A DNA stretch of 64,000 nt from Sphaerolaimus hirsutus (lineage: Eukaryota > Nematoda > Chromadorea > Monhysterida > Sphaerolaimidae), in contig OZ038450.1 in NCBI GenBank assembly GCA_964036195.1, positions 4,404,701 to 4,468,700 of the forward strand, in the 5' to 3' direction. Below, in pieces: positions 3,354 to 62,836 of this stretch. The notes under the pieces were generated by a model. That model searched no databases, was not told the DNA's origin, and was given only the letters and a program-made list of their open reading frames with translations. The translations under genes were made by a program, and so were the position numbers. How positions within the stretch are numbered: the first letter of the stretch is position 1; each line of letters starts with the position of its first letter.

Positions 3354-3704
3354 CTCATTTCACATCACTACTATGGCTTTTTGGGCGCCATTACATTACA
3401 TCGAGATGTTTCTTTTGATGACAGACTATAAACTGCTGTTTGGCTCCTTATTCTATGTTGGCATCAAACCAAGTTCATTTGAGTTGAAAAGAAAACTACC
3501 GTATGCAAATAGGTGAAGACCACTTGGGAATTGTAACCAAATCGGGCGCCAAATTTTCGGGACAATTATCACATATTATGTATTTGATAATTGGCCCGAA
3601 AATTATATGTATTTATAATATTTATGTACTGCATAAAGTAGGTAGGTAGAATACCTATGTATCCAGGAAAATAAAGTACAAACTGCACTGGTAAAAGTTT
3701 TGCA

Positions 3705-7206: not shown

Positions 7207-8157
7207 CATAATACGGTAGACTATTTTCAATCGGGCAGAGTGAATACAATCGGAAATACGATTAATCGGGTTGACCAACAGAATGTCGGCATACATTTTT
7301 TTCGTATATATTCATGTCCACAAAAGCGAAGATAATTTTTCCCACCTTTATTCCATGCTCCATTCCATTTATAATATAAATATGTTATCAGACGCCATCA
7401 TAAGGATGGAAAAGGTACAGACAAATACAAGAATAATTTATGTGAATATGAATAGAGGCAAAATCTATACAGAAAATCAAAGCCACAGCATTAAAAATGG
7501 GAATAAAATAGTAAATTCGAAAGAGAAAACGGGTGAAAATACTACCCAAAACTACTTTCAAAATGTACAAGCTCATTTTACAGTTCAACCATCGATGGAA
7601 TCAGCTTACAACCAAGGCAAACGGCAGTAGAAAAGGCAGAAACAGAGTGATTGTTGGAAAACGGGGGATCTCATTTTTTCCTTAGGCTTTTGAGAAATCA
7701 CCCAGTTCTCAGAAACTTCAATTTCTGGACAACATTTTTTTGCAATTCCACTTGTCATCCAAAGTAAAAATTAGAAAACTTTCGCGTTCCACCAATCACA
7801 CGGCATTTCAAAGTGAAATACGCAGTTCCCTCTAGTTGTCAATTTTGGGGAACTAAAGGGCCACTTCGCGATGCTGTGCAAAAAAATTTGCAAAAATTTT
7901 TCCCCTCCAAACAACAAAAGAAAAAAGGTAATTTTCTTGCATCAGCACAGTCTCATGACCACTAGCAGCACAATCCATGACTCTTACATCTTTGGTGAAT
8001 CATTGAAGCAAAAAGAAAACACAAGCTGCACAGAGTCAAACACAAAAACACAATATTTGTCATGCTTCAATGATTCATCAGTAGCTCATGCAGTGGAGTA
8101 GAGGAACCATTAAATTAAAAATGGTCGCTTTTGAAATATTGAGGAATAATCTACTGG

Positions 8158-8319
8158 TGCCAGTCTCAGACCCTGTAAAATGTCATACAAAAGTATCAAA
8201 GGTCATGTAAAATGCCGTGTAAAATGACAAACGTACGCTTCCCGTCTTCCAGGGCATTTTTACACATGTCTTTTGACACTTTGCATGCCATTTGACATTT
8301 TACAGTGTCTGGGACTGCC
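8158..8319. mobile_element. CAGTCCCAGACC MITE copy
   Basis: Left end TGCCAGTCTCAGACCCTG, right end CAGTGTCTGGGACTGCC, with repeated AAAATGTCA words inside. Flanks are ACTGG on the left and CCTGG on the right, resembling the CCAG-type target seen for the copy inside the channel gene at 58777-58890. Confidence 0.6.
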
Positions 8320-8452
8320 TCCTGGATTCAATATTGGACAGTGTAATTTTAGCTATGTATACCAGATGTAAATGCATTATCCGGTTGTTATAAAACCCCA
8401 ACATCTCAAAAGTTTGAAAAACAAACACAGGGCACACAAAAAGTGCAAAAAA

Positions 8453-17372: not shown

Positions 17373-17662
17373 TAGTGACGTAAAAGCGCCAGAACTTTGG
17401 CGCCAAGCGCCATGGCGCTTTTCCGACCCCTAGCGCCAAGCGCCAATGGCGCCAAGCGCCATGACGCTTTTTGCTTTGTCGCTAGCGCCGAGCGCCAACA
17501 CCAGGCATTTTGTTCCTGGCGCCAGTCAAAAATAGCGCCAAGCGCCAGGGCGCTTTTTATAGGCATGACGCCAAGTGCCAATGGCGCCACAGCAAAATAG
17601 TGCCAAAAGCGCCATGGCGCTTTTTGCTTTGGCGCTAGCACCATGGCGCTTTTACATCACTA
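17373..17662. mobile_element. GCGCC-palindrome MITE, TSD TACATACC
   Basis: A 290-bp element from TAGTGACGTAAAAGCGCC to GGCGCTTTTACATCACTA with perfect 8-bp duplications TACATACC at 17365-17372 and 17663-17670. Nearly all of it is built from GCGCCAAGCGCCA/TGGCGCTTTT words. Confirms the element borders used for 2543-3353 and 59284-59536. Confidence 0.92.
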
Positions 17663-17667
17663 TACAT

Positions 17668-29225: not shown

Positions 29226-29430
29226 GGGGTTGACTTGAGTTTTTAGGGGCTGAGTTTACAATTGAGGGTTGAGTTGATGGGTGTTTATAAATTAGGGTTG
29301 AGTTGACAGAAGTTTAAAAATAAGGGGCTGTTGACACAAGTTCACAAATTAGAGGCCGAGTTTATGGGAGTTGAGTTGATGGGTGTTTGCCAAATTAGGG
29401 GCTGAGTTTATGGGAGTTAACAATAACATT
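29226..29430. repeat. Degenerate GGGGCTGAGTT minisatellite
   Basis: Repeats of roughly 30-50 bp built on AATTAGGGGCTGAGTTTA and GTTGATGGGTGTTT. The same unit reappears at 32266-32318 on the other side of the 116-bp array, as if the array expanded within it. Confidence 0.6.
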
Positions 29431-29449
29431 ACCATAATCCTTAAGTGAG

Positions 29450-32260: not shown

Positions 32261-32309
32261 CCAAATTAGGGGCTGAGTTTACAGGAGTTTCCAAACTAGG
32301 GGCTGTGTT

Positions 32310-35300: not shown

Positions 35301-35850
35301 AGGGGGTGCCATTTGGAGGGGGGTCCCCATTGGGGTGTCAGTTTTTGCAAGCCTCTGAGTAGTGGGTACCTATAGCAGGATTCTCTCCAACCTTCAGTTG
35401 GGTTTTGTGGTTCTCTACAATTTATACCACAAGGATTTACAAACACAAAAAGAACAGCAAAGCACAAATGTAACCAATTGAAGATTACAACAAAGTTTGA
35501 CACCTTGCAAAAACCACACTATCATATCACAAAACCTATACCACACAGAATGCACAGGGTCCCCAGGGGGGTGCCATGTTTGGGGGGTCCCCAGGGGGTG
35601 CTATTTTTATGGGGTCCCAAGGGGGTGCCATTTTTGGGGGGGCCCTAAGGGGTGCCATTTTCTGGTGGTCCTCAGGGGGTGCCATATTTGTGGGGCCCTA
35701 GGGGGTCCCATTTTTGGGCGGTTCCCAGGGGGTGCCACTTTTGGGAGGTTCCCCAGGGGGTGCCATTTGGAGGGGGGTCCCCATTGGGGTGTCAGTTTTT
35801 GCAAGCCTCTGAGTAGTGGGTACCTATAGCAGGATTCTCTCCAACCTTCA
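32310..35850. repeat. GGGTGCCATTTTT tandem array with higher-order duplications
   Basis: Units of about 26-30 bp such as GGTCCCCAGGGGGTGCCATT. Blocks repeat at larger scale: 32700-33377 recurs at 34826-35503 (offset 2126 bp), and 33371-34003 recurs at 34253-34886 (offset about 882 bp). A non-repeat segment with ACCTTCAGTTGGGTTTTGT is interspersed six times. The unit leaves several frames open on both strands (the longest is 232 codons, 33289-33987 minus), so open frames here carry no evidence of coding. Confidence 0.92.
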
Positions 35851-36224
35851 GTTGGGTTTTGTGGTTCTCTACAATTTATACCACAAGGATTTACAAACAC
35901 AAAAAGAACAGCAAAGCACAAATGTAACCAATTGAAGATTACAACAAAGTTTGACACCTTGCAAAAACCACACTATCATATCACAAAACCTATACCACAC
36001 AGATTGCACACTGCACACCATCATACCAAATCGCAAACTGTCTACATTTTACTACCGTGTTTCATGCCCAACCATTTTACAGAAGTTTACAAAAATCCAT
36101 TCCAAAACATTGCATCTTTGGTATTGGTCTTGTTATTGTTGGTAGATTACATACCGCATTTCAAAACACATGCCTAGCATGTGGGCAAACTTAACTAAAG
36201 TATCATATTTTCTCCAATGGTATT

Positions 36225-45900: not shown

Positions 45901-48900
45901 CAGCTATGGTCACAGTGTGCTGCGATCACCTCCGGGGCCATATGTCAAGTTGTTGCAGGTGTGTTTGACTAATAACTGCCAACTGAATCTGAACCGTATT
46001 CTTTTGCGATACTGAAAAATGCATCTTTTCAATGCCGAACAGTTTGTATTAAGGTCTACCAGCATTTTTCAGCAGTCTTTTTTCACTTCAAATGAATAAA
46101 GGTATACGGCGCTACACGCAGTAGTTGACATTCGAATGTCAACTGGTTGATGTCAACTCATATTTTAGTTCACGTGTCACAGAGCGATCTTCAATTGCAC
46201 ATTTCGCTAGATTTATTGTTCTTCATTGCAGCACCGGCAATTGAAAATCGCTCTGTGAAACGTGAACTAAAATATGAGTTGACATCAACTTTTTTTACTC
46301 CTACTCATGCGTAAATGTGAGTAAAATACTTTAGGAAAATGTAAAAGCGACTACTTTTTCCCTGGAAAACGTAAAAGCCAAACTGGTGGAACATTTAAAT
46401 GGGAAATTGGTGTACCCATTTTTCAACGTAATCGCACAGGGCAACGGGCAGCCCAACTTGGCTGCCATTTGTTGTCGGGGTGCCCCCAACATTTGCCTAC
46501 ATTACTGTAAAGTGGCACCCCCTGGCACCCCTCTGTTCTGCTGCTTGAGATAAATATATCATTTTTTCATTTTTTCCCCAGAAAATATAAATGGAAAGAT
46601 TCAAAAACCCATGCAAAATAGTGTGGCGAGAAAGTGAACAACCATTTTTGGTGTGCTGCCAATACAAGCAATGCATATGCTTTTGCTGGTGCTTTTTTGA
46701 ACAATAAAAATCCTTAATCATTTCTCCATGCCCATATTTTGACCACTGGCTAGTTTGGGGGTATATTTATGCTCACGCTGCCCCTCCCAATAAAAATGGC
46801 GTCCAACACGCAGGCATGAGCCCCTAAACTATGTCTACAATGATTTTGTAATAATTTATCATCAAAAACGTGCTTGTAAATGAAAAAAACTTCATTTTTC
46901 CACTCTGTGGCCATGGTGTCTTACCTTGTCTGACCCATTTACAAAAGCGACAGGGTACACTGCCCTTGGAGCCCTGTTGGTTTTGAGAGACAATTAGTGC
47001 CCACATTCAATGAGCAAAACAATTCCATCATTTGTGACCTGACGCTGCAGGCGTCGGACACGCTGTCACACATATGCACCCTGAAAACAAGGGCATTTTC
47101 ACTGAGGGCCATAAAAACATACTGAGTGCAAAAACATGGCCCAAGACCAGCCATTTGTAGCACATGGCACTGAGGATAGCAATTCTGGCCACCATGTGCT
47201 GCATGAAGGTCCTGGGACAATAGATAAAACAGTTTTTCCAACCTATGTTTTGATCAAATTTTTTTTTAAAGTTTGAAAAACAATGCCATCATTGTATGGG
47301 GCTTCTGGGGGGCTGAGGGGTAGAAAAGTTGCACAAACTTACAATCTACCAATGTCAAAAAACGATTTAGTCTCAAATGTCCTGAAAAAAATGTATCAAA
47401 AATTTAACTTTCATTGGGAACAAAAATTTGTATTGATTTCCCATTTATATTTTCCAGAAAACAAGGGAAAAGAGTTATTTTCAGCACAAATGAAGGGCTG
47501 ATGGAGGTGCCTCCATGGGTATATAAATATAGCCTCACGCGTAAAATACACTTGGGGGGTTCCCTCACACAAAATGACAGCCTGACAGCTTGCCTGTGGG
47601 ATTTTTAAAATATAGTTTCTTGAAAATCCCATTTAAATTTTCCACCAGTTTACTACTTTTTAAATGCGAAAGTGTCAGTTTTACACTGGAAGGCATAATA
47701 GATGTCATTTTTTAGAGATTATTTAGTATTTTTAGAAAAATGATACGATTTCTTCTAAATTTTCTTTTTTTAGCAACAGAAAATTGTGATTTTAGCAACA
47801 AAAGTACATTTTCTCTGTACGCGTACAAGTGAGTACATTACTTTTTTCTAAAGTATATGTAAACGTATTTACTGTGTACTTGCGTACGCGTATTTTTCGA
47901 AAAACGTACGTACATTTTAACAACTGTGAACTGCACTGACATAAAAGTAACATATTAAAATTAACGCAGTGACGCCATGCTATGCAAACTCTGCTCTGTG
48001 CACCGCATTGGATTCAACAGCAGTATGTCAAGATGGAAGTGAGGACACATATACATGCACATGCACAGAAGGACAATATTGGGGAACACACTGCGAGAAA
48101 TGTCAGTTTGTCATGTGGTATTTATGTTACTGTGCAAAATAGTTGTAAAATAATACGGAACTAGTTGAATTGACTTGTGAACGATCTCCTATTCCTAACC
48201 GAGGAAGAGGACGAATGTGAACGGATGAATTGTGACGTGAAGCGTCGTCTCTTAGTTGATGTTCCGTTATTTTATCAATGTGATTAGTTGAGTTGAAGTG
48301 AAGTGACGTGAGTTAGTGTGAAGCAATATTTAGATTGTTTCCAAAAGGGTTTGATGAACGTTTTTATTTAGACAATTAAATACAAAGAAATAAATGTAAA
48401 TAAAATATACCAAAATAAAGGAATTAACTTACAGCTAAATTAATTACTTAAATTAAACGTAAATTAAACGCAAATTACCGAAGAAAATAGGCAATTTAAA
48501 GAAGGCACTTAATTACGACAAAAAGGCGATAATTAAGTGGCGCGGTTGTGAACAAAGCACCTTAAATAGCGCGGTTGTGAATAAAGCACTAAGGTGATTT
48601 AAAGCACCAAGGGTTAAAACTTAGCACCAAAAATAAGCGACTTAATAAAGGTGACAACGGCGCTTATTTAGATCCTAGGAAGAGATTTTTGTGAAGTTGA
48701 CGAGGTTGCAAACACTGCCGATTTTAGCTGTGAGATCGGCTTTTAAGGGCCAGACCGATGGCGACTAGCTTGGCGCCAATCGGTCGGCTCTAATCTCCGA
48801 TTTTTACCCAACATTTCCTATTGTGAAAGTTCAATTCTTGCCCGCTCGCTCTTCCGATGAAAAGCGAGCTAAACTGGCAAGATAGTGAAAATGTGAGACA

Positions 48901-51900
48901 AGCCAGACAGCATTTGAAATGGCGCGCGGGCCCGGCCCCCCGCTTGGGGCGAGCCCGCCGCTTAACATAAACATGTCGGCGTATTTGCGTGCTGCTTGTC
49001 AAGGAAGTGTGGCGGAATGTGAGCAATGACTAAGATCTAAATATGTGAGCAATGTAAAGCGCACGTTGTAAACATGATCGCTTGAGATATTAATTGATGA
49101 ATGTTGAGATGTTAAAAGGTGGAATGTGAAATGAAAAAGAATATTGATAAATTGAATTAACTAAATATAAAAGCGAACATAAGAATGTCAACTTAAATAT
49201 TAAAAGTTTTACATTTTACGATAATGTTACACAATAGTTGAGACTGTTGGTGTGCAGATTTTTTGGTAGGGGTACGCCAAGCGCCAATGGCACCACAGCA
49301 AAATGACGCCAAGCGCAAAAAGCGCCATGGCGCTTTTTCCTTTGGAGCTAGCGCCATGCGCCAGCATCATGGCGTTTTTTCATCACTAGTGCTCAATTTC
49401 ATGATTTGCAACAGTCTTAAACGTTGCTCATTTTGCATTATTGCGTTATTCTCCAGCAACTGGAAGCATGCCAATGGTTTATAATGCATGCAATTTTCAT
49501 AAAGATAGCTTACATTTACATATAGCATCATACAGCATTCACATATGAAGGGTGTGCTTCTAAAAGTACCGATCTACAAATTTTTCAAATTTGAGTTAGG
49601 ACCATTTTTGGGGTCCCCATAAACATGCGCTTCAAAAAATATATAATATGCGGGGGTGCGAAATTCAATTTTGAGATATGGGGGGTCAAAAAAAGCAAAA
49701 AAATCGCAAAATACAGTTTTAGACATTTTAAAAGTACCGATCTACAAGCTTTTTCAGCTTTTGTGTCTTTAAAAGTACCGATCTACACACTTTTTTCAAA
49801 ATTGTTCTTTTGAATGTAAAGATCTGCACATTATTTTTTGTGCTTCTAAAAGTACCGATGTCAGATCGGTGTCCGATTGAGCAAAAACTCATTTTGTGCT
49901 TTTTTATTATGGGTAAAAGTACCGATCTACAGCTGTCTGATTTTGTGCTTTAAAAAATACCGATCTACATGCTATTACCAATTTGTTCCTTTAAAATGTA
50001 CTGTACTACAAAAATATAATTCACTAAATTTTATAAAGCTAGTGTTATGTGTATAATCAATGATTATACCCATGCATGTGGATACCCAACAATATGGCCG
50101 AAATACCCATACCCAAAATTCCCATACCCAATACCCATGTATGGGTATTGCATACTCCAAACTTTCAATTGCGATTATCTCAAAATCGATTTTTTTGTAG
50201 ATCGGTACTTTTAGAAGCACACCCTTCATATACTGTTATACTACGACGTTTTATAGATGTACCTAGTTGACTGGCAAGTTATTCTACCTTTCAAAAAGAA
50301 TTTAGCCTGATGCCAATCCCACACCCTGTAAAATAACAAATGTCATTTTACATGTACTGGGAGTGGCTCCAGGATGTATTTCACATAAATACAGAGTGCA
50401 TTTCAGCAACACCGTGCTTTGGGAACTCGACTCTGTGCACTGCGTTGGACTCAACTGCAGTATGCGAAAATGGCAATGAATACGAGTACACGTGCACATG
50501 CACAGAAAGCCAATATTGGGGAACTAACTGTGAGAAATGTGTGTTTTCATGTGGTCTATATAAAGTTCAATACTTTCCGGTGGTCTATATAAAGTTCTGT
50601 AGTTTACATATCTTATTAGGTAACCGACCACTTTCCCTCAATGCAGATAGGTAGATATGAGCACCCTGTGAGATAAATATAACAGAAAAAGCATGCTGAG
50701 GTGAAACAATCAATAACTGATGAATTGGCCCTACACACACTAGTTTTCACCATGACTGATGTGAAAACTGAAATGGCGACATGGCGACATCTAGCCTACT
50801 CTTTTTGTATGCTATGTGTTTTAGTTTAAAAATTTTCATAGTTTAACTTTCATTAATTCAAATTCCAATTTAAATTGGATAAAATCATTCAACCGTGTTC
50901 ATAATTTTCCATTTGAAAAAAATGTCAGTTTTCACACGAAGTCACGGTGAAAACTAGTGTATGTAGGCACAATCAATCAAGAAGTTTGAAGTGCTCTAAC
51001 TTTTGATTGGAATGATATATTGAACTCATTTTTGTTTTATATGAATCCTCTTTGTCTAAAGTATATTGTAGCAGGTTCAGAATTTTTTTGTGTTAAAATA
51101 CTGGGTAAAATCAAGATACAGAATTTAGACATCACTAATCTGACCCCAAAAATGGAATCTTCAGGTCGTCCCGATCATTTTAAGTGTTGAATGATCCAAA
51201 TTGGTCTAGAAATGGGCAAGCAATTAAGGTTTAAAGTCAATCATCTAGATCAGCCATTTTTTATATTTTTATTGACCACCCTTTTATAGACCCCCTTTAT
51301 CTCGGGCCTGGGGGATTTTTCGAACAAACAAAATTTGTTCATAGTAGCCCCAACCTCAAACACCAACATACTCGACCCGAACGACAACAAAATTGGGCAA
51401 GGGACAAGTCACTGGGAAGCAATTAAATTGTGGCGGACCCCCAGCCCCATTTTTTGCTATCGGCAAAAATTCTTGTTTATTCTGCACGGTAGTGTATTAA
51501 GCGATTTTTCACCTATCTTTAGCAATTTGTGACCTGTTTTTAGTCATTTTTCTCCTTCTACACCGCGAAAATGCCTATATATTGAACCCCCCCCATGTTT
51601 TTTCTATGTATCCCTCCGGAGGAGGGATTTACTATCTATCTGAACGCCCGGAGGGGTCCAAATCCACTAAATTCCTGGATAACCACATATGCACTGTTTC
51701 ATGATTTTCAAATGTCTCAACCACAGGACTTATATCTGAGGTTATGGTATTGTAGTGCCACATTAGAATGCATATTTGAAGTCAACAAAAACTCCATGCT
51801 CACATTTTTACCATTTGCAATTATTAAGGCTTGGGGGCACATATTTGGATTACAGTGTCTGTGAGTGGCCCCAGGCCAGGATACCTTTCACATAAATACA

Positions 51901-54900
51901 GAGTGCATTTCAGCAACACCGTGCTTTGGGAACTCGACTCTGTGCACTGCGTTGGACTCAACTGCTGTATGCGAAAATGGCAATGAATACGAGTACACGT
52001 GCACATGCACAGAAGGCCAATATTGGGGAACTAATTGTGAGAAATGTGTGTTTTCATGTGGTCTATATAAAGTTCATTAATTTCCATGTTTTATTAGGTA
52101 ACAGGCCACTTTCCCCATCCAGTTAAATTCACTATGAGGGGAATTTAATGGGATGGCCAACTTACCTTCATATGATCAATTCAATTGACAAATCATCTCG
52201 TCATTTGCTGGTTCAATGGGAAAATCGTTTGAACATTTACAACACAATGGGCAATTTTTCCTGATATTTTCTATTGAATATTTGGATAAATTAGGCACCA
52301 GATGACCAGACGTTTGTCAATTGAATTAGCAAATGTTCAGATGGTTTGCCATGTGCCATGTACAATTCCTATTGTTGAAGTCAAAGATGGTTATGAAAGC
52401 TGGTAAAATATACATTTGAGTAGTCACGCTAATAGGAAAATGTAGGGAAATAACCGGTCGAGGGAACTTGACAGTCAGTTAAATCCCCCTTCAAGGGAAT
52501 TAAACTGGGAGGGGAATGTGACCTGCATTTGTTTTTAATGCATATTTAAATTGCCATTTTTCCATGCAGTAACACCATGTGCCAAAAATACAGGAATTTG
52601 CATTTCTGTTGATGATGCAGCAGTTTGCCAAAACCATCTAGACCTGGTGACAGGAACTGGAACCTATGAATGTATTTGTTCTGACACTAATTTTGAGGGG
52701 GTGCATTGTGAGATATGTTAGTCAACATGTACATTGCCTATTATCAATGTGTACATTTTGTGACAATATTGTTGGTTCAGGCCACCATGTCTCACAATAC
52801 TTTCATCTCATTTATCTGTCAGATTTGCCATGCAAGCAGGCAGTTTGCAACATGAGTGATGAAAATGCAACATGCATTGTGAAACCAGCCCCAGAAATGT
52901 TTGAATGCATCTGCTCATCTAATTACACCGGGAAATACTGCGAGATGCGTTTGTCAAATTCTTTCAAAAAATTGTTAAAAACCACTCTGTCAAGCTGACA
53001 ACCTGTTTTCAATTGCAGCTGCAGGGATTGATGTTCTGAAGATATTGGGCAGTCTTGGCATTTCAGTGGAGGTGGATAGACGACACACTTTACCTTGAAA
53101 TCTACCATATCCCACATCTAAAAGGCTGAAAAATTTGGAAAAATTTTTTTTTATTTTCACATCACATGCTTTCAATATACATGAATTTGAATGGTAACAT
53201 GAAAATATGGTAACATTCCTTGTAAAGTGTTCAGTCTAATCAGTACTTGACTGAATTATTTTTTCAATGAAAGAACTTCTGGGGCCAGTTCCGCAAGTGG
53301 ACAAGTTAAGAGTTAAGAGTTAAGAGTTGAGTAAAATGACAAATGGCGAGTTAAGAGAAAAGTTAAAGTTTAAGAGAAAAGTGAAAGTTTAAGAGAAAAG
53401 TTAAAATTTAAGAGTTGAGTTAAAAGTTGAGTTAAATGTTAAGAGTTGAGTTAAAGGTTGAGTCAAATGTTAAAATTTGAGTTAAAGGTTAAAAGTTGAG
53501 TTAAGAGTTGAGTTAAAGGTTAAAACGTGAGTTAAAAGTTGATTTAAAAGACAAATGGGGGAAAAATGTAATAAAAAATAATAATAAATTAAAAAAATGA
53601 ATTTGGATCTTGAGAACGTTAGATTTGAAACAACGTTCCGCGATTTTTTCTTTTTTTAGCGATAATTTTTTTGGATACATTATTTTCAAATGACGTGCAT
53701 ACAACATTGGCACCATGCCAGCGAACAGCCGTATCGATACCAATTTCACATTTTTATTTTTTTATATTTTTTTTACCATCATTTTCCACTTGTCTCTTAA
53801 CTCTTAACTCAACTCTTAACTCTTAACTCAACTTTTAACCTTTAACCCAACTCTTAACATTTAACTCAACTTTTAACTCAACTCTTAAATTTTAACTTTT
53901 CTCTTAAACTTTAACTTTTCTCTTAAACTTTAACTTTACTCTTAACTCGCCATTTGTCATTTTACTCAACTCTTAACTTTTAACTCTTAACTTGTCCACT
54001 TGCGGAACCGGCACCTGATGACAATTTCCACTTACATGCAGACCTATTCTAAAAGTGGAACTGATGGTGCACTGAGCGCACTCATGGCGGTGGCTATAAC
54101 TTTTCAAATAGCAGCTATGAGCGAGAAGGATAGATTGGATACCAGTTGGAAGATTGATGAACTTATCAGGTGACAATCATAAATTTTATACACTGCATTC
54201 ATCCATCTCTTCATCAAGTTTTGATTTGATTGCAACCCCCAACTGACCCAAAACATAAAACCCCTGCCTCTGTTACCCCTAAAAACAACAAAAAAACATC
54301 AAGACTTGATGAGGGGAGTATTCCTTTCTGAACGCAGTGAAGTGTGGTCTGTGGTGTAGTTGATTTTGAAGTAACTGCTTGTTTTTTGCGTCACAGATCA
54401 TGCAAGTTCAACCATGTGCCATGTTCCAGGTGAGTGGATTTTTTGTTCAGATTCAGCGTGGAAGGGATGCAGTCTTAATCAGACATCTCAGCAAAATCTG
54501 ATGATACAAGTAGTTAATTATAGTGGAAGCCATTCTTTCAAATTTCTAGTATTGGTATCAGTTCAAGATTCAACATGTTCATTAAAAATGTGTGTTAGTT
54601 CCCTTTGTAGTTGTTGATTGAACTTACAACAAAGTTAACTTTGTTGTAAGTTCAATCAACTACTACACCTCGATATTTAGAACATGCATAACACAACTAA
54701 ACCTAAGTGAATTTTTGGAATGAGAAAATTTCCAAAATCTTCCCCAAGGAAACTAAAGGTTAAAGGTAGATAGGTGAATACATAAATAGAACAATAATAA
54801 TATGCTCAGTGACAATGGTGATCTTTCAATATACTATGAGAAGTCAGTTGGGAGCTGTGTGAGGTTCAATTCAAATAGTACTAAGAATCCACATCAGATA

Positions 54901-57900
54901 GTTGGACCAGGAAAAATGGCAGGTTAGGAAAAATTGAACTTGATCATGGACACAAGTGAATCTGCACTACACAGATGAGCTAATGGTGTTTTATTTACAT
55001 TTGAAAATGTGACTACACCTTGCAACAAATGTATTAGGTTGTAAACTAAATAACCTTAATTTTTTTGCGATTTCACATTCATGCGTCCCATTTTGTTGTA
55101 CATTGGCGGAAATTAATGCTGTTCTAGTATGTTGGGGTTTGGGGTTGGGGCTATGACGAAATTTTTTTGTTTCCTCGAATAATCCCCCAGTCCCGAGATA
55201 AGGGGGGTCTATAAAAAGGTGGTCGTTTTGAATGGCCGATCTGGATGTTGGACGGATATTTGCAGCTCCATACATCAGACATTTCTGGGACGATTTGGGT
55301 CGATCAACGCTTAAAATGATCAGTAAAACTTGCGGATTCCATTTTTGTGGTCGGATTAGTGATGTAAGTTAAGCAAATCTTCTCCCATTGGAGATGCGTA
55401 AAGGATATGCATATGGAGAAGTTGCATTCCCGCGGCTTTATGCGGTTACTTTTTCTATAGTTAGGAGGCTAAATTTCAAAGTGCTATAACGTTTGATTGG
55501 AAAGAGATATTTAAAATTTTTTTTGCGTCAGATGAATTCTCTTTATCTAAAGTTTATGATAGCATGGTCAGAAACACAAATTTCTGGTGTTGAAAAACCG
55601 GGTCAAATCAGCATACGAAATTCAAACATCACTAATCTGACCACAAAAATGGAATCTGTGGGTTTCACCGATCATTTTAAGTGTTTACTGATTCAAATCG
55701 GCCTGGAAATGGCCGATGTATGGAGCTTCAAAGTCAACATCCAGATCGGATTTTTCAAAATGACCACCTTTTTATAGACCCCCATTATCTCAGGACTGGG
55801 GGATTATTTGAGGAAACAAAAAGATTGCGTCATAGCCCCAACTCCAAACTCCAACATACTCGAACGGCATTAATGTCCGCCAATGTACAACAGAATGGGA
55901 CGCATGAATGTGAAATCGCAAAAAAATAAGGTTATTTAGTTTACAACCTAATATTTTCCAAGCTGGAAAAGGTACTGTGATTGTGATTTTTTTTGCTGAG
56001 AGTCCACTATTGGACAGGTGGGGGATTTCCCCTTAAAAACTGTCAGTTTTGCAATGTATTTAGGATCATAGTGTACAAAATCAAAAACAGTTTATGGTAA
56101 CATTCTGTGTAAAATGTACAGACAGTTATTGCACAACATATTATTCATTTGCTATCAAACATCCTTTCTGTGAGTTTCAGGGTTGGAACTGGAAGTTGAT
56201 GTGTCAGCAATAAATTATCTCAACTGGATTGAAAACAATGGTATGAGGGTGTTCACCCACCAGCAGGGAGAGCCAGTGTTTGGTGAATCACCATCTGTGT
56301 CTGTTGCCAGTGGACAAGTCACAAGTATTGGCATTACATTTGTGGGTTCTATCTTCACCTTTATTGTGCACTTGAAAAAATGTAAAAATGACCGGAAAAT
56401 TCATTAAAAATACAAAATTTAGGATAAAAGTGTCAAAATCAATGGTGTGTATGGAGACTGCGTTGAATCACCCCATGAGGTGGAAAAGTACTTTTATGAT
56501 GGATTGTACTCAATAGAGGTTTGTAAACTTGGCAGACATTATGGAAGTCAATGGTCTGAGGAATTTTTGTATGAGTGCGGTATAAACCAACGATAGGGTC
56601 ACATGTGAAAAATAAAAGAACATAAAAGAAGGAAAGCTGACTTGTTTCATGTCTGCCGAGTTTATCTGTGGTTATTTTTACACAATGTTGGCCCAAAATC
56701 CATGCTTGTGTTGACAGTTGGATTGATCTCACTCTGAAAATGTTTTATTTTTGTCTATTCAAGCTGGAAAAATCAACCTGCAATAATACATGCTGTAATA
56801 AAGAATAGTTGAGAACTCCACATGGGTTCGGGCACTTGAAAATTTTTCATTCAAAGATTAATTCCACCAGAATGGGTGAACTCTTGAAATTTTGGCCAGT
56901 ATCAAATGAAAGCCCAAACATTTCTCTACAAATGCCCAGGGACACCCCCCCAGCATAACGCCATGTGTGCCGCGCAACCGGCACACACGTTTTTTATACA
57001 AAAATGCGTTGCTCACTTGGGTTCGGACACTTTCTTCTTATAGCGATAAATCTGTCTTCAAATGACGGATTTCGGATTTGAAAACTGAATGAAGCTCTGG
57101 CTCGTTGCCAGTGGCCCATTCCTTTATAAAATTCAGTTATGGGTAAGCTTTTTTCAACCCAAGTTTCTTTAGGCTTCACAGATCAGTTGACAGTCATTTA
57201 TCTAAGTTTTTTTGGTAAATTGAGTTGGCAAAGCCACGCCCCACTTCTCATTCATCCACAATGCCCCCACCAAACAGAATGACCCAGAAAAGTGCAATGA
57301 GGCACTGCACAGTGCGGGATAACCACTGATTTGGATTGCTCAAGCACAGTTGGTTATTTTGGCAAGCAATTCTGGACATTCAGCAGTGTGTAGGCCACTG
57401 GAAACAATCAGGACAGTTAGAGGAGGTTGTGGCAGATATTTTATACACACCCCCACTCGAGGAAACCTCCCCAAATTCAGCACGTTTAAATGCAAAATTT
57501 TGGGACTGAAAAAAACAAAATTTAGTAAATAGTAAAAAGGTAAGAAAAACACTAATTTTTTGCACTCAAACGTGTTGAGTTTGGGGAGGTTTCCTTTTGT
57601 GGAGGGGTGAATAAAAAGTTCGCCACAACCTCATCTAACTGTGCTAGTTGTTTCCAGTGGCCGACACACTGCTGAATGTACAGAATTGCTTGCCAAAATC
57701 ACCAACTGTGCTTGAGCGATCCAAATCAGTGACTATCCCTCACTGTGCAGTGCCTCATTGCACTTTTTGATGGTTGTTCTGGTCGGTGGGGGCATTGTGG
57801 ATGGATGAGAAGTGGAGCATAGCTTTGTCAATTCAGTTTACAAAAAAAAACTGAGAAAAATAACTGTCAACTCACCCAACAAGCATCAAGAAGTGAGTTG

Positions 57901-59853
57901 AAAAAAATATATCCAAATCAGATTTTTTAAAGGAATCAGTTGCTGGCAACTAGCCAAAGCATTATTCTGTCTTCAAAGCCAAAATCCGGCCTTGAAAGAC
58001 ATATTTATCGCTAAAAAAACAACGTGCCCGACCGAACCCAAGTGAGCAACGGAATTTTGTATAAAAAATGTGTGTGCCAGTTGCGCGGCCCACACGGGAT
58101 TCTGCCAGAGGGTGGCCCAAGGTATTTGTAGAGAAATGTTTGGGCTTTCTTTTGATACTGCCCAAAAGTACCAGAGTTCACCCGTTCCGGTGGAATTTAT
58201 CTTTGAATGAAACATTTTCAAGTGCCCGAACTCATATGAACATGGGTTTAGGTAGCTTATACCATACTTGGTCTGGATAGCCAGGTTTGAACATAATATA
58301 CTGAACTTTTGGTTGAAATAGTGTATATTATTTACAACACAAACACAGGGCTGCCAAAGAACATGCATGCAAAGGAAAGTTATGAAAAAGTGCTTATGTA
58401 CGGATCCCAGATATGCAGTTCAACACCAAGAAACCATCAGGTAAGTGAATTGGATAATAGTTTATTTTTTAGTTTTTTTAACTTTATCATTTGCCATGGG
58501 ACAATCTCTGCACCAATGCACACATTTTACAAATCAGGGGTACTTTGTCTACATAGTATGGAAACATATTTACATAAATCTTACATGCATCTTTCTTCAG
58601 TCGGTATAGGGGGGGGCGGAGATTTCAAAGCAAAGTGTGCAATGCAATAAATAATATAAATCTCTTAATCGGTCCTACTTTAATTTGCCCCAGAGCTTGC
58701 AATGTGAGTGACTACGAATGCTGCAACAGTGCCGTCAGTGACATCGACGCTGTCATGGCACAGTGCCAATGCCCAGGTGCCACTCCCAGACCCTGTAAAA
58801 TGTCAAATGTCATGCAAAGTGTAAAAGTCACGTAAAATACCTTGCATAATGGCAAACGTACGTGGGCACTTTACAGGGTCTGGGAGTGCCCCCAGACAAG
58901 TGCACGTGAGCGAATTAAAATATTGAGGCTCCTAAATTAACATATTTACATCGATAAATTTCAGGAGTTTCACAACTCAAAATATCGTGTCGCGAGCACC
59001 ACATACAGTATTAGATGAACAATGCATGAAATACACAAATCGGTCTGAATATGATCAGTGTCAGTATGAAAAGTCAACTGATATGGCCCATATTTATGTA
59101 TATGTGCATGATATGCTCTACAGAACTGCAAAAGAAACCCCGTCATTCCCAGTTAGTTCGACAGGGGTGCAGATTACCCGGGATATTGGACACATTTCGG
59201 AAGACGTAGGCTTCCTATCATGTAAATCAGCTGCTGCTGATCCCCCTAAAATACATTACTGGCGGTTTACATTGAGGAACAGGTAGTGATGTGAAAAGTG
59301 CCAGAACTTGGGCGCCAAGCGCCATGGCGCTTTTCCGACCCCTAGCGCCAAGCGCCAGGCGTTTTGTTCCTGGCGCCGGTCAAAAATAGCGCGAAGCGCC
59401 ATGGCGCTTTTCATGGGCGTGGCGCTAAGCGCCAATGGCGCCACAGCAAAATAGCGCCAAGCGCCAAAAGTGCCATGGCGCTTTTTGCTTTGGCGCTAGC
59501 GCCAGGCGCCAGCACCATGGCGCTTTTACATCACTAGGCACAGGGTTATTCGGTATATGGGCTGATGCGTGGGCTTGAGGCAAAATTGAAATTCCAGCAT
59601 TTTCTCCAACTTTTGATCCCATTTTAAGCATACGTGTATTTTCTTACACGTTGCATCTAGGTTAAGCGCGAAACGTTTGAATGTTTGTTTGAAACGACAA
59701 GTACATCAAACTTCACAGCCAATCGATTTAATACCAAAACTTGGAGGAATTCTTGGTCTGATTATGGGCATATCGATATTTTCATTGATGGAAATGATCT
59801 TCACCGTGATACAAATAATTGTTATATTGTGCACCGGGAAAATGCCACAGTAG
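42913..59853 (+). CDS. EGF-module DEG/ENaC sodium channel subunit
   Basis: Exons in phase: 42913-43021 (tentative), EGF exons 47970-48101, 50407-50538, 51914-52045, 52570-52716, 52823-52948, then 53019-53071, 54042-54169, 54397-54429, 54810-54922, 56181-56341, 56423-56518, 58349-58440, 58694-58776 + 58896-58905, 58965-59282, 59544-59552 and 59661-59853. About 650 aa from the first EGF. Amiloride-sensitive channel family marks appear in order: SCKFNHVPCS, SVGSCVRFN, GLELEVDV..GMRVFTHQ..SIGITF, NGVYGDC, YSIEGCQRTC..KKCLC, CQCPDKC, and the pore/TM2 LGGILGLIMGISIFSLMEMI with the GxS filter residues (GIS). The C-tail is very short (stop after GKMPQ). Such channels are trimeric plasma-membrane sodium channels gated by peptide, acid or force. 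TM1 was not found. Two MITEs interrupt exons but look spliceable. The ligand is unknown. Confidence 0.85.
43448..45908. mobile_element. Long palindromic element, TSD GTCACAGT
   Basis: Ends CATAGCTGAAATCGGGGG and CCCCCGATTTCAGCTATG, with perfect GTCACAGT at 43440-43447 and 45909-45916. Arms of more than 600 bp are near-perfect inverted repeats (for example GCCGGCACGTGTTTATATCT on one side and its complement on the other), so the element is essentially one hairpin. It is split by the hAT-type element 43954-45023. No protein is encoded. Lies in a channel-gene intron. Confidence 0.9.
43954..45023. mobile_element. hAT-type element nested in the palindrome, TSD CTCCCATC
   Basis: CAGGGTTGGCAAAATC to AAAACCAACCCTG, perfect CTCCCATC at 43946-43953 and 45024-45031. 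Sub-terminal filler is AAAATAAAATA. The core is a palindrome of TGTCATGACAAATG-type words. Sits near the apex of the host palindrome. Confidence 0.9.
46150..46290. mobile_element. Small palindromic MITE
   Basis: GTTGATGTCAACTCATATTT and its complement AAATATGAGTTGACATCAAC bracket inverted GAGCGATCTTCAATTGC/GCAATTGAAAATCGCTC. It abuts hAT-type sub-terminal repeats on its right. Confidence 0.55.
46291..47935. mobile_element. hAT-family remnant with a nested unclassified insert
   Basis: Outer parts (46291-46380 and 47800-47930) carry GTAAAATACTTT/GTATATGTAAACGTATTTAC words and an end reading CATTTTAACAACTGTG. The inserted 46384-47650 segment begins AAACTGGTGGAACATTTAAA and ends near TTTTCCACCAGTTTAC, suggesting its own inverted ends. 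Open frames inside it (for example 46939-47241 minus) show no known domain. Confidence 0.45.
47970..48101 (+). CDS. EGF module exon 1 of the DEG/ENaC gene
   Basis: A 132-bp phase 1-1 exon encoding one six-cysteine EGF-like module (TPCYANSALC...CTCTEGQYWGTHCEK). Acceptor ACGCAG, donor T|GTCAGT. A symmetrical 1-1 exon can be duplicated or inserted without shifting the frame. It is more diverged than modules 2 and 3. Confidence 0.8.
48144..49233. mobile_element. Solo LTR, 5-bp TSD ATAGT
   Basis: A 1090-bp segment starting TGTAAAATAATACGG and ending AATGTTACACA, i.e. TG..CA with TGT/ACA tips, flanked by ATAGT at 48139-48143 and 49234-49238. A 5-bp duplication is typical of Ty3/Gypsy-like LTR retrotransposons. 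No internal region remains, so it is the product of LTR-LTR recombination. The flanks rejoin as GTGCAAAATAGTTGAGACT, which resembles a terminus of the Tc1/mariner-like element at 28546-37084. Confidence 0.75.
49270..49397. mobile_element. GCGCC MITE fragment
   Basis: ACGCCAAGCGCCAATGGCAC and AAAGCGCCATGGCGCTTTTT words, ending GGCGTTTTTTCATCACTA. The right terminus is recognisable; the left one is degraded. Confidence 0.6.
49544..50231. mobile_element. Inverted-repeat element with internal GTACCGATCTACA repeats
   Basis: TIRs ATATGAAGGGTGTGCTTCTA (left) and TAGAAGCACACCCTTCATAT (right). The word AAAAGTACCGATCTACA is repeated about eight times inside, the last copy inverted. No coding frame. 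Intronic in the channel gene. Confidence 0.75.
50311..50375. mobile_element. CAGTCCCAGACC MITE, deleted copy
   Basis: TGCCAATCCCACACCCTG to ACTGGGAGTGGCTCC, only about 65 bp, just upstream of EGF exon 2. A similar remnant precedes EGF exon 3 at 51855-51876, as expected if exon and flanking intron were duplicated together. Confidence 0.5.
50407..50538 (+). CDS. EGF module exon 2 of the DEG/ENaC gene
   Basis: 132 bp, phase 1-1, six cysteines (STPCFGNSTLC...CTCTESQYWGTNCEK). It differs from exon 3 (51914-52045) at about three positions, and the flanking intron sequence (TTTCACATAAATACAGAGTG upstream, TGTGGTCTATATAAAGTTC downstream) is also shared, so the pair is a recent tandem duplication. Confidence 0.82.
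50729..50975. mobile_element. MITE with CACTAGTTTTCACC ends
   Basis: CACACACTAGTTTTCACC at the left and GGTGAAAACTAGTGTATG at the right, with CATGACT/AGTCACG just inside. Non-coding. A fragment of a related end occurs at 61874. Confidence 0.6.
50985..51495. mobile_element. Half of a Tc1/mariner-like element
   Basis: Matches the inverted left arm of 28546-37084. It includes GAGATAAGG-type and TTTTAAGTGTT modules in reverse and ends TTCTGCACGGTAGTG followed by TA. The other terminus is missing. The boundary on the left is approximate. Confidence 0.65.
51497..51680 (+). mobile_element. CTAT-repeat, C-tract element, 3' part
   Basis: GCGATTTTTCACCTATCTTT, C-run, then TATCCCTCCGGAGGAGGGAT and GCCCGGAGGGGTCCAAATCC, the distal portion of the family seen at 22107-22625. 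Directly abuts the TA flank of the preceding element. Confidence 0.5.
51914..52045 (+). CDS. EGF module exon 3 of the DEG/ENaC gene
   Basis: 132 bp, phase 1-1, almost identical to exon 2 (50407-50538) apart from Ser/Gly in the fifth inter-cysteine region. Acceptor TTTCAG, donor T|GTGTGT. It follows a duplicated intron segment. Confidence 0.82.
52570..52716 (+). CDS. EGF module exon 4 of the DEG/ENaC gene
   Basis: 147 bp, phase 1-1, six cysteines (LTPCAKNTGIC...YECICSDTNFEGVHCEI). Longer central loop than modules 1-3. Acceptor CATGCAG, donor T|GTTAGT. Confidence 0.8.
52823..52948 (+). CDS. EGF module exon 5 of the DEG/ENaC gene
   Basis: 126 bp, phase 1-1 (LPCKQAVCNMSDENATC...FECICSSNYTGKYCEM), six cysteines and an NxT glycosylation sequon. 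Next in phase is 53019-53071 (or 53025-53071 through a tandem CAG), which links to the channel ectodomain. Confidence 0.8.
53281..54016. mobile_element. Foldback MITE of AAGAGTTAAGAGTT repeats
   Basis: GGGGCCAGTTCCGCAAGTGG to CCACTTGCGGAACCGGCACC. Both arms (about 250 bp) are repeats of TTAAGAGTTGAG and its complement around a unique centre (53545-53780). Same family as 60292-60513. Ends 25 bp before the exon at 54042. Confidence 0.75.
54042..54922 (+). CDS. DEG/ENaC ectodomain exons (finger/palm start)
   Basis: Three exons: 54042-54169 (..MSEKDRLDTSWKIDELI), 54397-54429 (RSCKFNHVPCS) and 54810-54922 (..DLSIYYEKSVGSCVRFNSNS..GPGKMAG), phases 0/2, 2/2 and 2/1. The C-x-F-N-x3-PC and G-x-C-x-x-FN signatures are the family hallmarks preceding the palm domain. 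The last exon has a short acceptor (TGCTCAG) but joins in frame on both sides. Confidence 0.82.
54613..54660. repeat. Perfect 48-bp palindrome
   Basis: Two 24-nt arms with no loop, meeting at AAAGTT|AACTTT (54631-54642), in an intron of the channel gene. It could form a cruciform, or a hairpin in RNA. No adjacent T-run, no element termini. Confidence 0.85.
55034..55951. mobile_element. Mariner-like palindromic MITE, TA target
   Basis: TTAGGTTGTAAACTAAATAA at the left and its exact complement at the right, each bordered by TA (55032-55033, 55952-55953). Arms continue as long imperfect inverted repeats. Inner modules (GAGATAAGGGGGGTCTATAA, TTAAAATGATCAGTAAAACT) are shared with 28546-37084 and 43448-45908. 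Confidence 0.85.
56181..56518 (+). CDS. DEG/ENaC ectodomain exons (palm/thumb)
   Basis: 56181-56341 (GLELEVDVSAINYL..NNGMRVFTHQQGEP..SIGITF) and 56423-56518 (DKSVKINGVYGDC..YFYDGLYSIE), phase 1/0 and 0/0. These correspond to the conserved VxIHxxxExP-like strand and the YGDC thumb start of the family. Confidence 0.88.
56818..58236. mobile_element. 1.4-kb foldback element
   Basis: The left CATGGGTTCGGGCACTTGAA and right TTCAAGTGCCCGAACTCATA are inverted. Arms of about 700 bp pair across a centre near 57540, including CACTGATTTGGATTGCTCAA versus TTGAGCGATCCAAATCAGTG. Non-coding. Fills most of the intron 56519-58348. Confidence 0.8.
58349..58776 (+). CDS. DEG/ENaC thumb exons with cysteine ladder
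   Basis: 58349-58440 (GCQRTCMQRKVMKKCLCTDPRY..) and 58694-58776 (ACNVSDYECCNSAV..MAQCQCP). The C-x3-C..C-x-C spacing and the following CxCP are typical of the thumb. The coding sequence continues at 58896 after the MITE-derived interruption. Confidence 0.88.
58777..58890. mobile_element. MITE inserted in a coding exon, TSD CCCAG
   Basis: 114 bp from GTGCCACTCCCAGACCCTG to CAGGGTCTGGGAGTGCC. CCCAG occurs at 58772-58776 and 58891-58895. Deleting the element and one TSD joins TGC CCA G with AC AAG TGC, completing CQCPDKC, and leaves phase 2 at the GTGAGC donor 58906, which fits exon 58965. The interruption 58777-58895 begins GT and ends AG. Confidence 0.85.
58896..59282 (+). CDS. DEG/ENaC exon pieces after the CxCPxxC motif
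   Basis: 58896-58905 completes the cysteine motif. A 59-bp intron (58906-58964, GTGAGC..TTTCAG) follows, then 58965-59282 (..TVLDEQCMKYTNRS..MAHIYVYVHDMLYR..KIHYWRFTLRN). The segment MAHIYVYVHDML resembles the last extracellular strand. The frame is open throughout and phase 2 at the end matches the TM2 exon. Confidence 0.75.
59284..59536. mobile_element. GCGCC hAT MITE inserted in a coding exon
   Basis: 253 bp from TAGTGATGTGAAAAGTGCC to GGCGCTTTTACATCACTA with octamers GGAACAGG (59276-59283) and GGCACAGG (59537-59544), seven of eight identical. Splicing 59283 (GT made of the last TSD base plus the element's T) to 59543 (AG of the right TSD) would join AACAG to GGTTATTCG and then the donor GTATAT at 59553, in phase with the TM2 exon. 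Confidence 0.85.
59661..59853 (+). CDS. DEG/ENaC pore and TM2 exon, terminal
   Basis: Reads ..KRLNVCLKRQVHQTSQPIDL then IPKLGGILGLIMGISIFSLM.., ending CTGKMPQ and TAG at 59851-59853. Contains the pre-pore LGGILGL, the GxS selectivity filter (GIS) and a hydrophobic TM2. The TM2 frame differs from the longest open frame at this locus, so a longest-ORF gene model would miss it. The intracellular tail is unusually short, lacking any PY motif. Confidence 0.9.
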
Positions 59854-60583: not shown

Positions 60584-62836
60584 TCACAATTCCTTTTTCT
60601 TGAATTCTATCCTCTCAACTTTGACTTCATCATTGATTAATTGATAAATGTAGGTGACGATTACCGCTTGTTGAACGTCCATAAGCATGAACGTTGGCCG
60701 CACATCGCTGCGGATAAGGATGTTTGGATATTTTAAGTGTGTTTTTTATGAGAAAGGTTTGTGCAGCCACCAAATGTTTGGAGTTATACAGGTGAGATTT
60801 AGAATTACTATAATTACGCAAAGTCGTATTACAGGAATAATTTCTTGAGTATGCACAGATTCAGTCATAAAAATATGTACGCATCTTTTGGAAATTCACC
60901 GTCATTTGGAAATTCACCGTCATACGAGAGTCGTCGTTGAAACTATACATACACCGCATCGAATATCGAGTATGTTTCATAAAAAAACGGATTTCTTAAA
61001 TTGCTATCGATTCAAACGCAGAAAACAAAAACGAATAAACACACTTCAAAACAATAAGATATTTTACCTTTCCAAAGGCGCATAAGCACCAGTGATGGAC
61101 CCAGGATTGACATAAAATGCCCCGTCCAATTCAAAACAGTCCATTTTATGCGTGTGCCCAGTTATAAGCACGTCCACCCCCAGTTGACGCCGTAGAAGAC
61201 ACAGGGCCTGGGATAAAATTGTTGCAAACTGTGGTAAATTGTGGTTCACTTCAAGATATTTTGCGCGCAGATATTTTGCTTTGCATGCGGCGGTCCGCGT
61301 AAGCTCCGCCCACTTTCGTGTAAATGCCCGCGCGCGGTAACCTCGAAAATCACGAACGTTCCGTCAGGCTCGCCTTTTTTGTGTATGGGCTCTATAATGA
61401 CAGCGAAGATTCTACGTTTTCTTACATATTACAGATAAAGCACATAATTTTAGCCCTTTGTGCGTACGCTCCACCCACAATTTTCATTTTCAAGCGCGTG
61501 ATGGGCCTCAAAAAGTTCGTAAAAATCACAAGTTTGTATAGGGAAAACGACACGCGCGGCCGAGCAAAATTCACGTGGGGTTTAGTGATGTAGGCGGCCG
61601 CGAGTGCGCGGAGTAACAGTGGCACATGGCTCGGTGCCAATACGCACAGGAATCTATGCGCGCACTGCAGTTGCGATGCACATCGGACGCGAACGTTGCT
61701 CTTATTCCATGTGCAAAGCATAATTTAACAGAATTTACCGTGAATTGTGCAATGGCAATGAATAAAAACAACTCAATCGAAATGACGGCATGTTCGTTGC
61801 TACCGTACAAGCAAATGTAAAAACCACTCAGCTTACTCGCACGAAAATTCCTGACCCCATATTGTTACCACACACAGACTAGTTTTATACCGAAATTTCC
61901 AAAAAAGTTAACTATCCTAAATAATGTTTCGACGTATTTCAGTTGACAGCAGTGTATAATTTATAGTTTTGTCAACACCAGTTGACAGTCACCTCTAGGG
62001 TTGGAAAAAAAAACGTTTTTTTTTTAACTCGATGTTTTTTTTAAAAAAAAACGTTTTTTTTATTAAAAAAAAACATCGGCCAACCCTAGTCACCTCACAG
62101 CAGTAAACTCACATGCACTCAAAGGTGATTTACGAGTTTTCTATTTTTTTGGCTAATTTCAGTAGGTAACTAAAATAGGCAAGGCTATTTTTATTAACGC
62201 ACCTGCACGTCGCCCCAAGGTATGATCTGATGTCCGTGGCACACACCAATCCTGAAGTTTCCTATCGTGAGTACCTTCGTGTCCGGATAGATCGATACCT
62301 GCGCACATGAAAAGTAGAGCACTTCCATTCTAGTTGACAGCGGGGTGTCAACTGGGTTGAAAAAAATCAATTTCCTTAAGGTGCTTGTCGGGATGGTCGG
62401 TGTCTTTTTGCAAATTTCTTTTTTAAAGACTTTAAAAACCGAAACCATCTTTTTAAACACAAACATTTCTTCACTACAAAAATGCCCAGAAGTGGGTATA
62501 GTCTAAAGAATAAATATATGACGCGACGGACACGCCCCCCCCACCCCCCTGCAGGGTACGTCCTTGGCTAAAAACAGTGCACAAGAAAGTTCCCAACCAT
62601 TTTAGCGCCGAAATTCTGCCCAAAAAGTGCAAAAACCACCGCACCTCATCGAAATCGCCGCGAACAACGTGCACATCGCAGGAGAGACTCTTGAAATAAT
62701 CGAACATTTCTTTGGTGCACAAATTACCGGTGCACACCACGTGTTGGATTTTGTTCGGCACCAATAGCTTGCGGAATTTCGTCGGTATCGAATGCGCCCG
62801 GTGGGGAATGTGCGCATCGCCGACTACGAGGACCAG
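60584..62836 (-). CDS. VPS29: VPS29 retromer subunit
   Basis: Minus-strand exons 62836-62645, 62298-62203, 61207-61068 and 60707-60584, phases 0, 0, 2, ending TGA at 60586-60584. Together they give about 183 aa after the initiator Met, matching the usual 182-aa length. Signatures of the metallophosphoesterase-like fold are all present: [38 protein letters not shown] and [12 protein letters not shown]29 scaffolds VPS35 and binds regulators within endosomal retromer; in animals it is not thought to be catalytic. The first exon shown starts [11 protein letters not shown] directly after a splice acceptor, so the ATG lies in a separate upstream mini-exon (as in vertebrates) that I could not identify in 62840-64000. 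Confidence 0.95.
61996..62088. mobile_element. 93-bp hAT-type MITE, TSD GTCACCTC
   Basis: TAGGGTTGG to CCAACCCTA, perfect GTCACCTC at 61988-61995 and 62089-62096. The interior is almost only AAAAACGTTTTTT. Same terminal style as 14036-16170. Lies in a VPS29 intron. Confidence 0.88.

Follow-up and report, generated by a model that had tools for sequence, protein, structure and literature searches.

In the nematode Sphaerolaimus hirsutus, one coding exon of a gene of the DEG/ENaC channel family is split by a copy of a miniature inverted-repeat transposable element (MITE), which might be spliced as an intron. The locus lies in a 64,000-nt stretch of contig OZ038450.1, referred to as the window; the assembly that contains it was searched as a whole (348,482,957 bases, 762 contigs). 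The features of the gene and of the element are as follows.

56423..56518, plus strand: DEG/ENaC exon, DKSVKINGVYGDC..YSIE
58349..58440, plus strand: DEG/ENaC exon preceding the split exon
58694..58776, plus strand: split DEG/ENaC exon, 5' part, 83 nt
58774..58776, plus strand: left copy of the target duplication, 3 bp, CAG, delimited by the family ends; the empty site reads TGCCCAGACAAG in the four closest paralogs
58777..58892, plus strand: MITE copy, 116 bp, left end GTGCCACTCCC, right end GGGAGTGCCCC; the proposed 5' splice site is formed by the first two bases of the copy
58777..58895, plus strand: proposed introner-derived intron, 119 bp, GT..AG, absent from paralogs; the spliced reading is open (ASC, 6.4e-28)
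58893..58895, plus strand: right copy of the target duplication, CAG, delimited by the family ends; supplies the AG of the proposed 3' splice site
58896..58905, plus strand: split DEG/ENaC exon, 3' part, 10 nt, a would-be microexon
58906..58964, plus strand: older, pre-existing intron, 59 nt, with a donor position common to the paralogs
58965..59151, plus strand: DEG/ENaC exon after the split exon
59719..59853, plus strand: last DEG/ENaC exon, second transmembrane segment and stop
8157..8321, plus strand: second family copy in the window, CTG at both ends; joined flanks without a Pfam match

The joined exons of the window gene gave an open product of 200 residues. The ASC domain (PF00858) is present in this predicted spliced product, in accord with membership of the DEG/ENaC family, and the 600 nt of coding sequence examined (exons from 56423 on) contained no stop. 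Leaving the element unspliced introduces a stop codon. A protein search of the assembly revealed 57 matches at E <= 10, and 13 other paralogous loci were fetched; these leave out two weak matches that may reach the insert point (C1:15065511, E 0.05; C9:27073102, E 9.3). The exon was uninterrupted at the insert point in all 13 loci. The four closest paralogs, on contig C13, read TGCCCAGACAAGTGCACGTGAG, which is the window sequence minus exactly 119 bp. Because the 13 fetched exons are empty, the insert was most plausibly gained by the window copy rather than lost elsewhere, and the site is thereby empty in relatives within the same genome. Comparison with these four paralogs gave a nonsynonymous divergence (dN) of about 0.10, a synonymous divergence (dS) of 0.45-0.63 and a dN/dS of 0.16-0.24. 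Polarised changes were 21 nonsynonymous and 9 synonymous on the window branch and 21 and 16 on the sister branch; saturation of the outgroups makes synonymous changes difficult to polarise. The intron before the exon at 58349 is mostly filled by another element of 1.4 kb (56819-58238), with inverted ends of 129 bp (88%) and a further 210-bp inverted repeat inside.

The initial annotation of this locus described a 114-bp MITE between two copies of CCCAG. Direct reading of the sequence confirmed the layout, with CCCAG at 58772-58776, GTGCC beginning at 58777 and CCCAG again at 58891-58895. The MITE is present, but it is 116 bp long and followed by CAG. Its inverted arms (58776-58802 and 58867-58893) span 27 nt and are 89% complementary, and it folds into a hairpin of -52 kcal/mol (z -4.6). 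The window copy differs from the family consensus at 4 of 87 sites (about 4.6%). A 5-bp duplication, as annotated, also fits at this locus because the element ends in GCCCC; across the family, however, it was ruled out, since agreement among copies is limited to CWG.

Genome-wide, the extended left end of the family had 5,045 occurrences at <=1 mismatch, compared with 0 for a reversed control pattern. The exact left ends comprised 1,418 with CAG and 1,183 with CTG (2,601 together; p 4e-6). This CAG excess is compatible with selection; other causes fit too, and it was not used as evidence. The copies end C-W-G|GTGCCA ... TGCCCC|C-W-G, frequently inside CCWGG. Both ends carry CWG in 99 copies, of which 38 are CAG/CAG, 43 CTG/CTG, 15 CTG/CAG and 3 CAG/CTG, so that W matches at both ends in 81 (Fisher p 9e-12). 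The agreement of W was not significant in the first 36 copies (p 0.22), where CWG might have been fixed element sequence. Because the two ends agree in the larger sample, the target duplication of the family is read from these sequences as 3 bp, CWG. Terminal inverted repeats, short length, high copy number and a target duplication are all found, as in MITEs and other cut-and-paste elements. Inside the window, the terminal 19-mer occurred 10 times at <=3 mismatches (mean 0.01 in shuffles), which bears out the earlier claim of other dispersed copies there. As a candidate source of transposase, 163 DDE_Tnp_4 matches were found in the genome. A comparison by eye of their positions with left ends on contig C1 showed no consistent linkage to an autonomous partner among the matches listed. 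The DDE_Tnp_4 matches are closely similar to one another, and in most of the matches listed the reading includes four TGA, as though they had one interruption in common.

Exonic copies outside the window gene were studied in two sets. The first comprised 38 copies, most of them found through similarity to the window copy; their flanks were joined and open reading frames (ORFs) were scanned. Five of 48 sense ORFs matched Pfam domains, namely Kunitz (1.6e-15), KxDL (9.6e-9), protein kinase, C2 and FMN_dh, and one of 48 antisense ORFs matched, to CUT. This antisense copy (L012) appears by eye to be nested in an older element that has degenerated; the right end of that older element, GTGCCTCACAG, adjoins the ONECUT exon in sense. 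At about 1310-1690 of L012 the younger copy thus lies, in opposite orientation, inside an apparent old copy in the CUT exon of ONECUT; such introns thus seem to be targets of nested insertion as well. Alignments to HAO1 (2.3e-8) and HNF6/ONECUT (6.6e-29) in the PDB cross the junction without a gap. The match of L019 to UNC13D (5.7e-5) extends just three residues beyond the junction. Another copy, 353 bp long and GT..AG in form, sits in a different exon of a second DEG/ENaC paralog (L059), with the junction DMMYR^TSKE where the window gene reads HDMLYRTAKE; the 9 other paralog groups aligned are uninterrupted at this position. The divergence from the consensus is 22% in L059 and 24% in the Kunitz copy (L011), and the joined frames of both are open. 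L021 has a CTG right end (reverse strand, about 2066-2250) in a protein-kinase exon, by eye apparently 8 nt before the exon end; if an internal AG (GGGAG) were used, three codons would be added and the frame kept. Sequences of ONECUT, DEG/ENaC and FAT4-type cadherin genes were all encountered in the assembly, whose content is that of an animal genome. Similar elements interrupt exons independently at many sites: in the window gene, L059, L003, L004, L011, L012 and the 16 copies on C1 described below.

The second set was a gene-blind sample of 139 copies taken in list order on C1 (59 CAG and 80 CTG left ends); the right end was located for 116. Both flanks of the junction showed Pfam homology in 16 of the 139, all in sense. 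They comprise 7 of 38 CAG/CAG copies (L070, L083, L085, L089, L185, L191 and L201), 4 of 15 CTG/CAG copies (L117, L118, L129 and L160) and 5 of 43 CTG/CTG copies (L111, L123, L132, L157 and L159). Thirteen of these match at E <= 0.001; the weaker matches are L070 (0.0084), L118 (0.0047) and L089 (0.0056 left, 0.038 right), the last being within the E 0.01 limit on its left side alone. Matches in the PDB support L085 (8e-15), L123 (2.9e-12), L083 (3e-12), L129 (3.6e-11) and L111 (2.8e-4). None of the 127 antisense ORFs (73 + 54) had homology on both sides, and one, GDT1, had a one-sided match. The two-sided sign test gave p 3e-5 for 16 to 0, and p 2e-4 for 13 to 0 when restricted to E <= 0.001. 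Sense ORFs were scanned less fully than antisense. For the first 79 copies, 39 of the 88 sense ORFs of >=55 aa (in most cases the longest of a copy), six further sense frames chosen by eye (including L123) and all 73 antisense ORFs were scanned; for the last 60, the ORFs of >=58 aa were scanned, all 54 of them in antisense and all but four in sense. Left out of the 16 were L148 and L200 (no match), L175 (one-sided match), L107 (no useful match), L151, L021, L008, L024, L028 (helicase, PDB E 0.27), L019 and a CTG/CTG ORF that matches Calpain_III, for which the source copy is ambiguous. The right ends of L140 and L173 (six mismatches) and of L105, which resembles a left end, are doubtful; L068/L192 and L076/L198 are apparent mutual duplicates, none of them counted. 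A codon score was tried as a coding test and gave joined flanks well above random DNA, but the antisense was high too, and homology was counted instead. An unspliced insertion should be equally harmful in either orientation, and the sense-only pattern is therefore the best evidence that sense copies may be removed from transcripts.

The CTG/CTG copies lie in sense in exons of SLC23-, chondroitin-synthase-, fucosyltransferase-, dehydrogenase-E1- and 7TM-type. In the first set, AG at the right end seemed to be needed for exonic survival (7/8 vs 14/30, one-sided p 0.045); the gene-blind sample does not uphold this. There the exonic share is 11/53 for a right-hand CAG and 5/46 for CTG, with no clear difference; the test behind this (p 0.20) used counts of 13 and 6. 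If the last ACAG of the element served as acceptor, the frame would shift by 19 nt in all five exonic CTG/CTG copies. In the stretch searched, the smallest change made by any frame-keeping GT..AG pair is 51 nt gained or lost in L111, L123 and L157, and 30 nt in L132; L159 has no such pair within that stretch. In L151 one C is absent, and the last ACAG would add 18 nt in frame; the copy, whose joined flanks gave no Pfam match, presumably lies in a gene resembling AMPK gamma. For these exonic CTG copies, the spliceosome may take TG, it may use distant AGs, or the alleles may be harmful ones that await removal. One conceivable extension, more doubtful than likely, is that the spliceosome takes CTG as well as CAG. 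Any sense insertion at CWG might then become an intron (GT..AG or GT..TG), and exonic CTG might later be converted to CAG. Such slow conversion would account for the excess of CTG-left/CAG-right copies in the C1 sample (15, with L140 doubtful, vs 3 of the reverse); an earlier set of 36 copies showed no such excess (4 vs 5). As annotated, the GT comes from the element and the AG from the target duplication in 58777-58895, and this holds for the CAG-ended copies in general; it does not hold for those that end in CTG.

Several choices are available for the splicing of the window exon. The initial annotation took 58777-58895 as the only reading with the right phase. However, 24 GT..AG excisions inside the split exon preserve the frame, and so do three other donors joined to 58965 and the skipping of the entire 93-nt exon. 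Among the 24, only 58777-58895 makes the exon agree with the paralogs in length and sequence at the insert point. The CxCPxxC motif is indeed rebuilt by clean removal, as had been pointed out, but this is an automatic result of removing the insert with one target copy and is no independent evidence of splicing. Several further observations weigh against an intron at 58777-58895. The donor (CAG|GTGCCA) is weak and has no G at +5; the host donors of the same exon have G at +5 in 12 of 13 paralogs, the 13th (L052) being without GT altogether. The pyrimidine tract is not clearly visible at the 3' end, both proposed splice sites lie in or beside the stable hairpin, and splicing leaves a 10-nt exon; the frame-keeping excisions and whole-exon skipping are also alternatives. 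Relaxed constraint on the window gene is possible, as the polarised changes lean nonsynonymous. In the family, a CTG end leaves no AG at the boundary in 5 of the 16 exonic copies from C1, and likewise in the kinase copy L021. Moreover, the Pfam limit of 0.01 admits chance matches; RIFIN, nec1 and Vpu among the sense ORFs were taken as such.

The weak donor, the 10-nt exon, the possible relaxation and a gene family with many paralogs would also suit an ordinary disabling insertion, left unspliced in a redundant DEG/ENaC gene, the allele being null or weak and not yet decayed. At an element divergence of about 4.6%, an unconstrained gene would by our estimate show lesions, yet the 600 nt examined are intact, and the sense-only exonic pattern is unexpected if exonic copies are simply unspliced; this explanation is considered unlikely. 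Skipping of the whole split exon would keep the frame and give a shorter channel without 31 residues. It would delete the conserved cysteine-rich segment that is present in 10 of 10 paralog groups aligned and leave the other families unexplained, which makes it very improbable. Equally improbable is splicing at another acceptor such as GGGAG (58886) instead of the target duplication. The excision 58777-58886 preserves the frame with three codons added, and introners elsewhere can add codons (PMC9860276, in the part available); the paralog length is not restored, however, and many copies read GGGACTG, without that AG. A MITE that landed in an intron already present at the site is the least probable of all, and close to negligible: no observation spoke for it, it is contradicted within the same genome because the 13 fetched paralogous exons have no intron there, and nothing is left over where the flanks meet at the 3-bp duplication.

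The segment 58777-58895 is thus very probably a fairly recent copy of a non-autonomous MITE family whose insertions create introns (an introner family). This reading is largely supported, and it is backed more by the whole family than by the window copy alone. The element would presumably be inserted by a transposase acting in trans, at CWG targets that often lie within CCWGG, with duplication of CWG. The left end of the element, GTG, would provide the GT donor in one orientation only; where the duplicated triplet is CAG, the second copy would place AG exactly at the far end. A sense insertion in an exon would then form a GT..AG intron, and its removal would restore the former mRNA exactly. 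An antisense insertion would form no such intron, and these alleles would presumably be lost. The proposal in the initial annotation that a MITE in a coding exon behaves as a ready-made intron is supported by the 13 empty paralogs, by L059 and by the sense-only, domain-splitting copies. To call the locus direct evidence of intron birth goes too far: the exonic CTG class is without the AG that the argument needs, and we infer splicing of the element, in the window gene included, from sequence. The origin of new animal introns is a long-standing question. Such a family, with copies by the thousand, paralogs that preserve the empty site within one genome, insertions of various ages and a simple two-class target (CAG/CTG), would make intron birth directly measurable, together with its cost and the maturation of splice sites. 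If the share of 11.5% (16/139), extrapolated from one contig, holds genome-wide, the 2,601 exact left ends would correspond to about 300 introns in recognisable domains.

Other repeats and coding stretches were also observed in the window. Three stretches (47967-48109, 50404-50546 and 51911-52053) are 77-78% alike and, judged by eye, look like exons of EGF type; the second and third are closely preceded by MITE ends. Dispersed repeats built on CGCCAAGCGCCA / GGCGCTTTT occur at 2584-3367, 17409-17667, 49275-49389 and 59355-59549. Two adjacent repeat arrays (29426-32260 and 32219-35879) consist of units of about 116/145 bp, then copies at 27-28 bp spacing, with higher GC and strong skew. The minus strand at 61064-61363 holds what we take, from its motif, to be a VPS29-like coding stretch.

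Introners were surveyed by Gozashti et al. 2022 (PMC9860276). In the available part of that survey, they are multicopy non-autonomous DNA elements acting as introns, and 161 of the 175 genomes that bear them show enrichment in genes; of the animals and land plants, two groups alone, both animals, are reported to have them. The available main text has no mention of Harbinger. A family in Chrysochromulina brings its own 5' splice site and gets the 3' site from the duplication, as proposed here. The mechanism is thus already known from other introners; it does not explain the CTG class. The Chrysochromulina introners have 4-bp duplications and no terminal inverted repeats; whereas the window family has a 3-bp CWG duplication and terminal inverted repeats, which it shares with other introner families. 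It also differs from the surveyed introners in its exonic CTG class without AG. Moreover, splicing was tested with RNA in the survey, whereas the window family is known here from its sequence. In the copepod Eurytemora affinis, introns with GA/GG donors were described (PMC5714493, in the part available). Both animals would have frequent unusual splice sites; however, the donors vary in the copepod, whereas the possible oddity of the window family is at the acceptor. In a limited search, with later introner surveys outside it, no description of a CWG-target introner family in an animal was recognised.

The ends of the family can be compared with known DNA transposons. The CWG duplication does not agree with PIF/Harbinger sensu stricto, for which TWA is the target. 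According to the accessible part of Han et al. 2015 (PMC4482050), the NuwaI group of PHIS transposons has a CWG duplication and terminal inverted repeats that usually start with GGG, and occurs mainly in animals. The window family shares the duplication, and its right end reads GGGGCA in reverse complement. Of the 163 DDE_Tnp_4 matches, candidates for a mobilising transposase, none is linked to the family ends among the matches listed. Unlike NuwaI, the left end of the family starts with GTG rather than GGG, and this creates the putative donor. The family is most likely an animal introner with NuwaI-like ends.

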